Shown piece after piece: positions 8,509-62,033 of a stretch of 64,000 nucleotides of DNA (position 1 is the stretch's first letter; every line of letters begins with the position of its first letter). The position numbers were made by a program, and so were the translations under genes. Below the pieces are notes generated by a model. The model did no database searches, was not told the DNA's origin, and worked only from the letters and a program-made list of their open reading frames with translations. The stretch is taken from assembly GCF_036663835.1 (NCBI RefSeq), contig NZ_JAXOJT010000001.1:1984001-2048000 (forward strand). Reading direction: 5' to 3'. Origin of the DNA: Sphingomonas sp. LT1P40. GTDB taxonomy: Bacteria; Pseudomonadota; Alphaproteobacteria; Sphingomonadales; Sphingomonadaceae.

Positions 8509-8590
8509 TCGTCATCCCGGCCTTGAGCCGGGATCCCGCTTCTTCGACGGCACCCATAAGCGGGACCCCGGCTCAAGGCCGGGGCGACGA
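8509..8590. repeat. Palindromic repeat, family A (REP-like doublet)
   Basis: Two 33-base arms (8509-8541 and 8558-8590) are inverted copies with three mismatches around a 16-base loop. Each arm is itself a hairpin (CCCGGC CTTGA GCCGGG). A near copy lies at 61953-62033 and a single unit at 29396-29424. It follows zapE and may end that transcript. The 280-bp gap to mdh also holds a TTGACA at 8646 and a small GC hairpin at 8696-8719, neither clear enough to call. Confidence 0.85.
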
Positions 8591-11796: not shown

Positions 11797-11803
11797 TTTC
11801 AGC

Positions 11804-11884
11804 CGTCACCCCAGCGCAAGCTGGGGTCTCCAGCCGCGAGCGCGACGCTGGAGGCGAAAGACCCCAGCTTGCGCTGGGGTGACG
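11804..11884. repeat. Palindromic repeat, family B (REP-like doublet), between sucD and sucA
   Basis: Perfect 26-base inverted repeats at 11804-11829 and 11859-11884. Each arm is itself a hairpin (CCCCAGC, four bases, GCTGGGG). It fills most of the 105-bp gap between sucD and sucA, ending 17 bases before the sucA start, so it would form a strong structure in the intercistronic mRNA. A second copy lies at 50038-50120. Confidence 0.88.
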
Positions 11885-29360: not shown

Positions 29361-29395
29361 GGCAGTATCTATAGCGTGATGACATCACACTTCCT

Positions 29396-29424
29396 CGTCA
29401 CCCCGGGCTTGACCCGGGGTGACG
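29396..29424. repeat. Palindromic repeat, family A, single unit
   Basis: CGTCACCCCGGG and CCCGGGGTGACG form a perfect 12-bp stem around CTTGA. It matches one arm of the family A doublets at 8509-8590 and 61953-62033. The remaining bases up to 29548 hold nothing I can identify. Confidence 0.8.
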
Positions 29425-29548
29425 TGACTGGTTCAAGCGGAGTTGCGCTAAGCCGAATCTCCCCCAAAGCGGAGCGAATGGCCGTAGCGCTTGCCGAAAT
29501 TTAACGCTTCGCCGCTAGTCGCAGCCTGACCAGCAGGTTGGGACCGGC

Positions 29549-47782: not shown

Positions 47783-48457
47783 ATGCGCGTTCTGATCGTC
47801 GAGGACGAACCCAATCTTCGCAGCCAGCTTCAGGCGACGCTTGAGGGTGCGGGCTATGCCGTCGATACCGCCGGCGACGGCGAAGAGGGTCTCTATCTCG
47901 GCCAGACCGAGGCCTATGACGCGATCGTCCTTGATCTCGGCCTGCCTGAAATCGATGGCCTGACCGTGCTCGACCGCTGGCGCAAGGACGGCAAGACCAC
48001 CCCCGTGCTGGTGCTCACCGCGCGCGACAGCTGGTCGGACAAGGTCGCCGGGCTCGACGCCGGTGCGGACGATTATGTCGCCAAGCCATTCCAGTCCGAA
48101 GAACTCATCGCTCGCCTGCGTGCGCTCATCCGCCGCGCGTCGGGTAACGCCAGCGCCGAACTGATCGCGGGCGACATCCGCCTCGACACGCGCAGCGGCA
48201 AGGTCACCAAGGCCGGCGACCCGGTCAAGCTGACCGCGCAGGAGTACAAGCTCCTGTCCTATCTGCTCCATCACAAGGGCAAGGTCGTCAGCCGCACGGA
48301 GCTGATCGAACATATCTACGATCAGGACTTCGATCGCGATTCGAACACGATCGAGGTGTTCGTAACGCGCATCCGCAAGAAACTGGGTGCGGACGTCATC
48401 ACCACGATTCGCGGCCTGGGCTACAGCCTCGAAGAACCGGCGGAGGCCGGTGCCTGA
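47783..48457 (+). CDS. OmpR/PhoP-type response regulator
   Basis: 224-residue two-component regulator. The receiver has the acceptor Asp51 in AIVLDLGLPEIDG, with acidic residues DE at 8-9 and a lysine in YVAKPFQSEEL. The C-terminal winged helix (LTAQEYKLLSYLLHHKGKVVSRTELIEHIY to VFVTRIRKKLG, TIRGLGYSLEEP) is OmpR-like. The AAAGGGAAAGCC before the ATG is a good ribosome site. Overlaps its kinase gene by eight bases. Confidence 0.94.
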   Translation: MRVLIVEDEPNLRSQLQATLEGAGYAVDTAGDGEEGLYLGQTEAYDAIVLDLGLPEIDGLTVLDRWRKDGKTTPVLVLTARDSWSDKVAGLDAGADDYVAKPFQSEELIARLRALIRRASGNASAELIAGDIRLDTRSGKVTKAGDPVKLTAQEYKLLSYLLHHKGKVVSRTELIEHIYDQDFDRDSNTIEVFVTRIRKKLGADVITTIRGLGYSLEEPAEAGA

Positions 48458-50030
48458 TCAGCGCGATTCGGATTCAGCTTCGCTGAATCAGGGCGGCACC
48501 GGCCCGCTCCCCCACCCGGCCACCCACACGGTATCCTCGATGGGTGGCCGGGTGGGGGAGCGGGCCGGTGCCGCGTCCGCGACAGCGGACTTTATCAAGA
48601 AATTTACCCGCCGCTTTCCGTTCGTTCACCGCGCGGCGCAAGCGGCGGCGCCCGAACTGACCCTCGTGCCCGGCGACCCCGCCCCCCGCACGTACACCCG
48701 CTCGACCGGGTCGCTCAGCCGCCGGATGATCCTGATCGCCGGGCTGTGGATCGCTTTGCTGCTTACCGGCGGCGGACTCGCGCTCGATCGTGTGCTGACC
48801 GGTGCGATCACGCGCAATTTCGACGATCAGCTCGAATATCTCCTCACCTCGATGATCGTCTCCGCCGAAATCGGGCCAGAGGGCGAAGTGGTGTTCAACC
48901 GCGCGCTCGGCGATCAGCGTTTTCTCGAACCCTATTCGGGTCTCTACTGGCAGGTCAGCGGTCAGGGCTTCGACATGTTCGCGTCGCGCTCGCTATGGGA
49001 CCGCCGCTTGACGACCGACCGGACACATCAGGATCAGGAGCTCCACACGTACGACAGCGTCCAGTTCGATCAGAAAATCCGCATCGTCGAACGCGACGTC
49101 CGCCTGCCCGGCTCGCCCATCCGCTGGCGCTTTCAGGTCGCCGAAATGCGCGACGTGCTCGACGCCCAGATCGACGCGCTGCGCCGCACGCTCGTGCGCA
49201 GCTTCCTGCTGCTCGCCGCCGGTCTGATCGCCATGGCCGCACTGCAGACCTGGTACGGCCTGCTCCCGTTGCGCAAATTGCGCGCTGCGATCCACCGCCT
49301 GCGCACGGGAGAGACCGCCGCGATCGAGGGCGCGATGCCCGCCGAAGTCGCGCCGATGGTCGAGGAACTCAACGCGCTTGTCGCGCATAACGACAAACAG
49401 GCCGAGGAAGCACGCCGCCACGCCGGCAACCTCGCGCATGCGCTGAAAACGCCGCTCACCGTCATCATGAACGCCGCCGCCGCCGGGTCCGACGACTTGC
49501 CGACGACGGTGGTGCGCGAAGCCCGCACGATGCGGCGTCAGGTCGACCACCACCTCGCCCGCGCCCGCGCGGTCGGCCGCCGCGGCTCCGCGCACAGCCG
49601 CGCGCCGGTTTGGCCCAGTGTCGATTCGGTCGAGCGCGCCGTCGCTCGCCTGTACCCCCATGTCCGCATCGATACCGATGGCCCTAAGGACCTGAACGCG
49701 CATATCGAGCGACAGGATCTGGACGAGATCATGGGCAATCTGGTCGAAAATGCCGCAAAATATGGCGGCGGGAGCGTGTTCATCACTGTCGGCGTCGATT
49801 CGGGCTTTGTCGAGATCCTGGTCGAGGATGACGGCGTCGGCATCCCGGAAGCCGACCGCATCCGCATCTTCGACCGCGGCGTCCGCCTGGACAGCGGCAA
49901 GCCCGGTACCGGCCTCGGCCTCGCCATCGTCCGCGACGTGGCGGAGATTTACGACGGCACGGTCAGTCTGGAGGAGAGCGACGACCTTGGTGGCCTGCTG
50001 GTCAGACTAAGGCTGCCAGCGGCGGGCTAA
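48450..50030 (+). CDS. Membrane sensor histidine kinase with an in-frame palindromic insert near its N-terminus
   Basis: 526 residues from the GTG at 48450, which has GGAGG just upstream and overlaps the regulator stop. The first 14 residues (VPDQRDSDSASLNQ) are followed by about 28 residues encoded by an 82-bp perfect palindrome (48493-48574). Two membrane segments (MILIAGLWIALLLTGGGLALD and SFLLLAAGLIAMAAL) flank a periplasmic sensor domain. The phospho-accepting His is in NLAHALKTPLTVIM; the ATP domain has IMGNLVENAAKYGG, EDDGVGIP and PGTGLGLAIVRDVAE. It resembles PhoQ-like kinases. An ATG at 48540 inside the repeat lacks a ribosome site. Confidence 0.85.
   Translation: MPDQRDSDSASLNQGGTGPLPHPATHTVSSMGGRVGERAGAASATADFIKKFTRRFPFVHRAAQAAAPELTLVPGDPAPRTYTRSTGSLSRRMILIAGLWIALLLTGGGLALDRVLTGAITRNFDDQLEYLLTSMIVSAEIGPEGEVVFNRALGDQRFLEPYSGLYWQVSGQGFDMFASRSLWDRRLTTDRTHQDQELHTYDSVQFDQKIRIVERDVRLPGSPIRWRFQVAEMRDVLDAQIDALRRTLVRSFLLLAAGLIAMAALQTWYGLLPLRKLRAAIHRLRTGETAAIEGAMPAEVAPMVEELNALVAHNDKQAEEARRHAGNLAHALKTPLTVIMNAAAAGSDDLPTTVVREARTMRRQVDHHLARARAVGRRGSAHSRAPVWPSVDSVERAVARLYPHVRIDTDGPKDLNAHIERQDLDEIMGNLVENAAKYGGGSVFITVGVDSGFVEILVEDDGVGIPEADRIRIFDRGVRLDSGKPGTGLGLAIVRDVAEIYDGTVSLEESDDLGGLLVRLRLPAAG
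48493..48574. repeat. Palindromic repeat, family C, inside the histidine kinase gene
   Basis: Two perfectly matching 34-base inverted arms (48493-48526 and 48541-48574) around a 14-base loop. It reads in frame through the kinase, encoding a Gly/Pro/Arg-rich peptide. A near copy with a similar loop in the opposite orientation is at 56394-56468, between mrp and hflK. Confidence 0.93.
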
Positions 50031-50037
50031 CGCAAAA

Positions 50038-50120
50038 CCGTCACCCCAGCGAAAGCTGGGGTCTTGTGCAGCGATCGTGTCGCGTGCGGTTTGAGACCCC
50101 AGCTTTCGCTGGGGTGACGG
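50038..50120. repeat. Palindromic repeat, family B
   Basis: Perfect 27-base inverted repeats at 50038-50064 and 50094-50120; each arm contains CCCCAGC, four bases, GCTGGGG. It closely matches the copy between sucD and sucA. It sits eight bases after the histidine kinase stop and may act as a transcript end. The 327-bp gap up to 50357 otherwise contains a short minus-strand gene (50127-50294) and no other feature I can see. Confidence 0.88.
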
Positions 50121-50126
50121 TATTAG

Positions 50127-56393: not shown

Positions 56394-56468
56394 GCACCGG
56401 CCCGCTCCCCACCCGGCCACCCATTCGATGATACGCTGTGGCGGCCGGGTGGGGGAGCGGGCCGGTGC
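56394..56468. repeat. Palindromic repeat, family C, between mrp and hflK
   Basis: A 25-base left arm (56394-56418) and a 26-base right arm (56443-56468) pair with a single extra base. The sequence and loop match the copy at 48493-48574, read in the opposite orientation. It lies in the divergent promoter region between mrp and hflK. Confidence 0.9.
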
Positions 56469-61896: not shown

Positions 61897-61952
61897 TGGC
61901 ACCACGATCGTCGATGCGTGCCTGTACCACGTTCAGCTAACGACCATCTTCT

Positions 61953-62033
61953 CGTCATCCCGGGCTTGACCCGGGATCCCGCTTCTTCTTGGCCGGGAAC
62001 GTGGCGGGACCCCGGGTCAAGCCCGGGGTGACG
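61953..62033. repeat. Palindromic repeat, family A, between convergent genes
   Basis: A 30-base arm at 61953-61982 and its inverted near copy at 62004-62033 around a 21-base loop; each arm contains CCCGGG CTTGA CCCGGG. It matches the copy after zapE. Placed between two convergent genes, it may act as a shared transcript end. Confidence 0.88.

Follow-up and report, generated by a model that had tools for sequence, protein, structure and literature searches.

Does a long, perfect palindrome in the open reading frame of a sensor histidine kinase represent an insertion, and is it translated as part of the protein? The question is raised by a locus of Sphingomonas sp. LT1P40 within a stretch of 64,000 nucleotides, the window, whose numbering is used throughout. 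A preliminary description had assigned the palindrome to a repeat family, family C, and had likened it to the Rickettsia palindromic elements (RPEs). Computational analysis of the locus revealed a repeat family, sites in relatives that are without the element, a conserved upstream start and an open frame, and the kinase copy is likely to be a mobile, non-autonomous palindromic repeat which was recently inserted into the kinase frame and whose peptide would be translated.

Structure of the inserted DNA

The features of the locus are collected in Table 1. The 82-bp palindrome of the preliminary description was confirmed as perfect, its 34-nt arms being 100% complementary around a 14-nt loop, and the corresponding RNA hairpin is predicted at -91.1 kcal/mol. 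The fold of the 191-nt region 48430-48620 lies 10.8 standard deviations below that of dinucleotide shuffles and was equalled by 0 of 200 shuffles. Two small hairpins adjoin the palindrome and both belong to the DNA that is extra at the kinase relative to the comparison junctions L032-L034, giving the insert the organisation small hairpin, 82-bp palindrome, small hairpin. A search of 48300-48800 against Rfam yielded no family at the cut-off, the weak matches being to unrelated hairpin families, and assignment of this segment to a known RNA family was therefore rejected.

A further copy in the window had been described as near-identical and as lying in a non-coding gap. Its family membership and non-coding position were upheld; near-identity was not, as the copy is 75 bp long and has a different loop and arms that are 80% complementary by ungapped comparison. 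The limits of the genes beside it were taken from a codon-based gene finder.

Table 1. Positions of the features of the regulator-kinase locus and of the second family copy in the window
Feature	Position	Strand	Evidence and remarks
Response regulator	47783..48457	+	Response_reg, Trans_reg_C; overlaps kinase start
GGAGG, Shine-Dalgarno-like	48442..48446	+	3-nt spacing to GTG 48450; three relatives have the identical junction
Sensor histidine kinase	48450..50030	+	526 aa from GTG 48450; 2CSK_N, HATPase_c; HisKA below cut-off
Left small hairpin	48471-48489	.	8-bp stem, 3-nt loop; no counterpart at L032-L034 junctions
Palindrome core	arms 48493-48526 and 48541-48574, loop 48527-48540	.	Self-complementarity, RNA fold
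Alternative ATG	48540..48542	+	Loop/arm boundary; annotated start of database entry P0004 (496 aa)
Right small hairpin	48575-48590	.	6-bp stem, 4-nt loop; no counterpart in L032-L034
Second family copy	56394..56468	.	Gap between divergent genes: minus gene start 56354, plus gene from 56569

Palindromes of other kinds were also seen in the window. Another palindromic family (CGTCACCCCAGC...) is represented at 50034-50124 and 11803-11884, one copy beginning 4 nt downstream of the stop codon of the kinase, and palindromes beginning TCGTCAYCCCGG, at 8509-8590, 61952-62033 and 29395-29431, are CGTC-type REPs by appearance.

Kinase start and comparison with relatives

The frame is open through the element up to 50030, placing the palindrome inside the kinase frame as had been proposed. 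Comparison was carried out with G026, G015 and G030, the three closest relatives examined (75-84% identity over an N-terminal 100-residue probe). The GTG codon at 48450 overlaps the regulator stop codon, and the junction GGAGGCCGGTGCCTGA (GGAGG-CCG-GTG start; also GCGGAGGCCGGTGCCTGA) is identical in these three genomes, all without the element, a conservation that is partly owed to the regulator reading frame. The N terminus of the relatives reads VPD or VPE ... FPFVRR or FPFLRR ... PGDPAPR and continues directly with SLSRRM, and the VPD/VPE ... FPFVRR ... PGDPAPR stretch lies upstream of every other ATG, GTG or TTG start seen in them. The kinase studied here, whose residues 1-30 from GTG 48450 are VPDQRDSDSASLNQGGTGPLPHPATHTVSS, has VPD, then 41 extra codons, then the divergent DFIKKFTRRFPFVHR. 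The distance from the regulator stop to kinase residue 86 is 247 nt, compared with 124 nt in G026 and G015 and 115 nt in G030, corresponding to a net excess of 123 bp (41 codons) over the former two and 132 bp (44 codons) over the latter. The earlier figure of about 28 added residues thus has to be revised to 41 codons relative to G026 and G015, side hairpins included.

Among the best 120 of 7,975 database matches, the palindrome peptide was present in 0 of 119 orthologues. At least 12 of 26 orthologues inspected are annotated from an M/V-P-D/E start, many reading M/V-P-D/E ... FPFVRR, and inspection of the regulator-kinase gap by eye at 29 orthologous loci showed no family-C palindrome. As the relatives keep the junction and the N-terminal sequence without the element, the ancestral start precedes the insertion and has been retained; translation from GTG 48450 through the palindrome is well supported at the level of sequence comparison. 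The choice of GTG 48450 with its GGAGG as the best start therefore agrees with the preliminary description, and the relatives, instead of starting downstream of the palindrome's place, share N-terminal sequence upstream of the other starts.

Inverted repeats of other kinds were noticed by eye in the regulator-kinase gap of G033 (L037) and G028 (L038), one with TTCGACAAGCTCAG and one with CGTC-type ends. This may mark the junction as a hot spot of palindromic repeats.

Copies in this genome and in other taxa

The search for further copies in the same genome, using the arm with up to 3 mismatches, returned 32 forward and 31 reverse matches compared with 2 and 1 for a reversed-pattern control, indicating that the family matches are not due to chance. 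When grouped by eye these matches amount to about 35 copies, of which 34 were analysed, and the consensus arm is TTGCGGCACCGGCCCGCTCCCCCACCCGGCCACCC. Thirty-two of the 34 are intergenic, usually shortly after a stop codon, and the remaining two, L014 (the kinase copy) and L027, lie in genes and are read in the same frame (33 copies were classified together, and L075, between gene ends, separately). L074 was left out of all copy tables, its arms not being recognised. It lies in the same genome (C2, near 1115522) and, like L148 (in G030, at the L072 site), is a short derivative resembling an internal deletion. A search of the genome for GACTCTA was unproductive, its 23 matches being scattered.

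Within the genus, 38 of 61 genomes (including this one) contain at least one match at up to 2 mismatches, although some single matches may be due to chance, and outside the genus arm matches at the same threshold were found in 1 of 39 genomes. Within the order, a peptide query matched in 85 of 396 genomes, representing 22 of 84 genera. An exact 25-base scan of named genomes identified at least 117 stretches, and the 80 listed include Sphingomonas, Hephaestia, Sphingopyxis, Qipengyuania, Roseospira, Rhodospira, Tistlia and Neoroseomonas. The hosts found are sphingomonads and members of other alphaproteobacterial orders. The family is unreported in the open-licence PubMed Central literature searched.

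The mobility suggested in the preliminary description is borne out by empty sites. Of 58 locus-relative pairs, 10 have the palindrome and 48 are without it; among the latter are cases in which the relative has different DNA there (e.g. L017, L029) and one, L072 in G030, in which it has a short deletion derivative. Of the 24 loci that could be compared, 23 are without the palindrome in one relative or more; 10 of the 34 copies had no comparable relative, L014 was compared via L032-L034 and 8 of the 34 were omitted from the anchor query. In 22 pairs at 12 loci no more than 30 nt lie between the flanks, and the net insert is 73-141 bp.

Arm pairing and flanking hairpins

Co-variation between the arms was assessed over 32 columns and 123 copies, kinship among copies being ignored. 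A total of 96 concordant double changes was counted, compared with a mean of 21.2 and a maximum of 39 in 500 shuffles, and 3,658 of the 3,936 cells of the core are paired and 278 mispaired. These values supersede an earlier figure of 147 against a mean of 66, which took in three outer, mostly unpaired columns. At sites common to relatives (e.g. L061 with G015, L070 with G026) the loops differ and the arms are still paired.

Perfect stems of at least 7 bp occur in 15 of 68 flanks of 40 nt in this genome, compared with 4.9% of 653 intergenic 40-mers (binomial P of about 1e-6, the background windows overlapping). The sequences of the side hairpins vary among Sphingomonas copies, and other genera have their own (Roseospira; 27 chosen loci). 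In Roseospira L283, L305 and L323 the hairpin next to the core has a recurring sequence particular to that genus, in contrast to the variable ones of Sphingomonas.

In-frame copies in other genes

L027 lies in a gene of the FA_hydroxylase family, whose last residues (GAGPVPYPATHTVHSMGGRVGERAGTV) are read from the palindrome in the frame used by the kinase (GTGPLPHPATHTVSSMGGRVGERAGA). The element is absent from G030 and G015, where the gene runs over the start of the next gene; the net insert is 124 bp. A database search with the kinase peptide identified eight other proteins, seven of them distinct. For three of these the insertion was read, at the protein level, as an unaligned stretch against a solved structure: RecQ (P0008) has an internal insertion of 34 query residues against 1 in the solved chain, the ExoVII large subunit P0002 has 56 residues against 8 and the RlmI-like P0001 has 36 against 7. 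The peptide is likewise internal in a second ExoVII large subunit (P0003) and a second RlmI-like protein (P0009). P0001 and P0009 are 69% identical and carry the insertion at the same place, which may thus reflect one event. In a DUF418 protein (P0005), an Alph_Pro_TM protein (P0006) and P0007, the peptide is near the protein end. At L435, as in P0006, a palindrome peptide was observed in frame just before an Alph_Pro_TM-type protein (by Pfam for P0006, by eye for L435).

The two other frames, searched together, gave one protein, with the match at a MatE C terminus. With the kinase excluded, eight of nine cases are in one frame (P of about 0.001 under equal frames), or seven of eight if P0001 and P0009 are counted as one (P of about 0.003, calculated by hand). 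The three frames are open in 83%, 83% and 73% of 246 copy-orientations, a similarity by which openness does not explain the bias. As the frame searches were of unequal build, a preference for one reading frame in genes is suggested rather than proved.

Copies within genes are uncommon. A coding signal to the left and right of the palindrome was found in 0 of 101 non-edge copies in the named genomes (34 edge copies set aside) and in 0 of 20 long-open-frame copies fetched from other genomes, both tests being blind to gene-end insertions; the latter matches were accordingly rejected as interrupted genes. L307, apparently inside a 968-aa ORF, was not counted, the upstream part being by eye a shadow frame before ThiS/ThiG-like sequence. 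Copies near sequence ends were left out of several copy analyses, the consensus arm and the named-genome coding test among them.

Alternative explanations

The kinase could be translated from within the element, at ATG 48540 or GTG 48552, the old start having been cut off and a new one donated, with the second arm alone coding. This would fit the annotation of P0004, the choice of GTG 48552 by the codon-based gene finder, and a stem which, beginning 43 nt downstream of GTG 48450, could impede elongation; these two start assignments indicate, for their part, that the composition of the insert is unlike host codons. However, neither the old GGAGG nor the old GTG has been altered, both matching three relatives exactly, and no motif resembling GGAGG occurs in the 15 bases before ATG 48540 (CACACGGTATCCTCG), which are located within the stem or next to it; an internal start is unlikely. 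A reading of the palindromes as selected 3'-end or regulatory hairpins, REP-like in function, with the kinase copy as a by-product, would account for the position of 27 of the 32 intergenic copies in this genome next to a gene 3' end (median distance 17 nt, in-gene copies excluded) and for the co-varying arms. Yet co-variation is explicable both by hairpin selection and by repair of one arm from the other, most sites are not common to relatives, and no Rfam family was matched at the cut-off in 48300-48800. The orientation of the loop relative to the adjacent gene is moreover unbiased (13 same, 10 opposite, 6 undecided), for which reason an RNA-directional function was rejected, and we consider selected hairpins a somewhat doubtful explanation.

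The means of movement was considered in the same way. A profile search for Y1_Tnp (PF01797, RAYT) gave 0 matches in this genome and found the domain in 15 of 100 genomes overall, but in G033 only among the 11 same-genus genomes with at least 9 forward matches; being absent here and from the other 10, the RAYT/Y1 transposase was rejected as mover. If the element were a MITE mobilised by an IS5-like (DDE) transposase, GAGTCTGTTTGGAAA ends with TNA target duplications would be expected, a combination that we take to be linked to IS5. Such ends are present in L010, L067 and L079, in each of which a 3-bp TNA is repeated identically on either side. Against this, GAGTC-type ends are present on both sides in only 8 of 115 copies, of which only these 3 show the duplication by our own reading, the kinase copy is without recognisable ends, and among the arm matches listed for this genome no pair was seen spaced around a gene. 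We give this origin a low probability. An outer inverted repeat as a general feature was rejected, ends and duplications being inconsistent (inward GTTTG 47 versus complement 6 in 230 ends). Spread by hairpin-primed template switching or recombination, with no transposase and with arm repair keeping the copies perfect, would agree with the distribution of Y1_Tnp and with arms that match each other where copies differ; it is nonetheless quite improbable, explaining clean insertions at unrelated sites less simply than transposition does.

Relation to known repeats

RPEs and their Wolbachia relatives are palindromic repeats, mobile by distribution, with in-frame copies tolerated in protein genes, some of them conserved, and form long stem-loops of about 100-150 bp (105-146 bp), as stated in PMC2229807, PMC10969869 and PMC3767692. 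The present family is comparable in its long stem-loop, with an 82-bp core and a 123-bp net insert against G026 and G015, and in its in-frame copies in the kinase, in L027 and, at the protein level only, in database proteins. It differs in its hosts, sphingomonads and other Alphaproteobacteria outside Rickettsiales, and in having 2 of 34 copies of this genome in ORFs, whereas nearly half of RPEs are so placed in R. conorii according to PMC10969869. The resemblance to RPEs put forward in the preliminary description thus stands for behaviour and not for the share in ORFs; the family would work like RPEs, the comparison being one of behaviour and not of sequence.

REP/RAYT systems and CGTC-tagged REPs are likewise palindromic, high in copy number and near gene ends (PMC3733652), but have cores of 20-40 bp compared with about 80 bp here; the consensus arm given above bears no GTAG or CGTC tag and this genome has no Y1/RAYT gene. 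The CIR elements of Caulobacter, Brucella and other Alphaproteobacteria are described in PMC2229807 as class-wide intergenic repeats of about 110 bp with long inverted repeats and a conserved GANTC. The present family resembles them in scale, intergenic position, inverted repeats and distribution across the class, but GANTC lies within 40 bp of the core in only 38 of 123 copies. It occurs at 4.7 per kb in the flanks in this genome, compared with 2.5 per kb for intergenic DNA, an enrichment too weak for CIR membership, which was rejected. The family is neither a tagged REP with RAYT nor a GANTC-defined CIR. ERIC/RU and other bacterial MITEs are small non-autonomous repeats that are sometimes fused in frame (PMC2229807 and PMC10969869), as is the case here, but neither terminal repeats nor target duplications were consistent among 115 copies.

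Proposed origin and significance

For the recent insertion of a translated repeat, the reading we prefer, the following course is proposed. The hairpin-palindrome-hairpin element would have inserted in this lineage right after the third kinase codon, its length of 41 codons and freedom from stops keeping the frame, and the Gly/Pro/Arg-rich peptide would be translated as part of the cytoplasmic tail that precedes the first membrane segment. Such a repeat, selfish or near-neutral, would for the most part land in intergenic DNA, which tolerates it, and occasionally in a gene where an open frame coincides with a flexible place for the peptide, such as the kinase N-terminal tail. The insert would be neutral for the kinase protein, and the stable mRNA hairpin 43 nt after the start may lower kinase output relative to that of the coupled regulator. 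A broader reading, which we hold tentatively and regard as possible rather than probable, is that of class-wide protein-coding palindromes of free-living Alphaproteobacteria, with a core near-identical from Sphingomonas to Roseospira, one preferred in-gene frame (RecQ, ExoVII and the RlmI-like methyltransferase included), arms kept perfect by repair or structural selection and moves that might be structure-guided without a Y1 transposase.

Protein-coding palindromes have been described for Rickettsia and Wolbachia, which are obligate intracellular bacteria (PMC2229807, PMC10969869 and PMC3767692). A counterpart in free-living, culturable sphingomonads would make insertion, tolerance and the effect on expression directly testable, and the finding bears on the annotation of the kinase start site, on how perfect arms persist despite divergence and on the entry of new peptide segments into conserved proteins.
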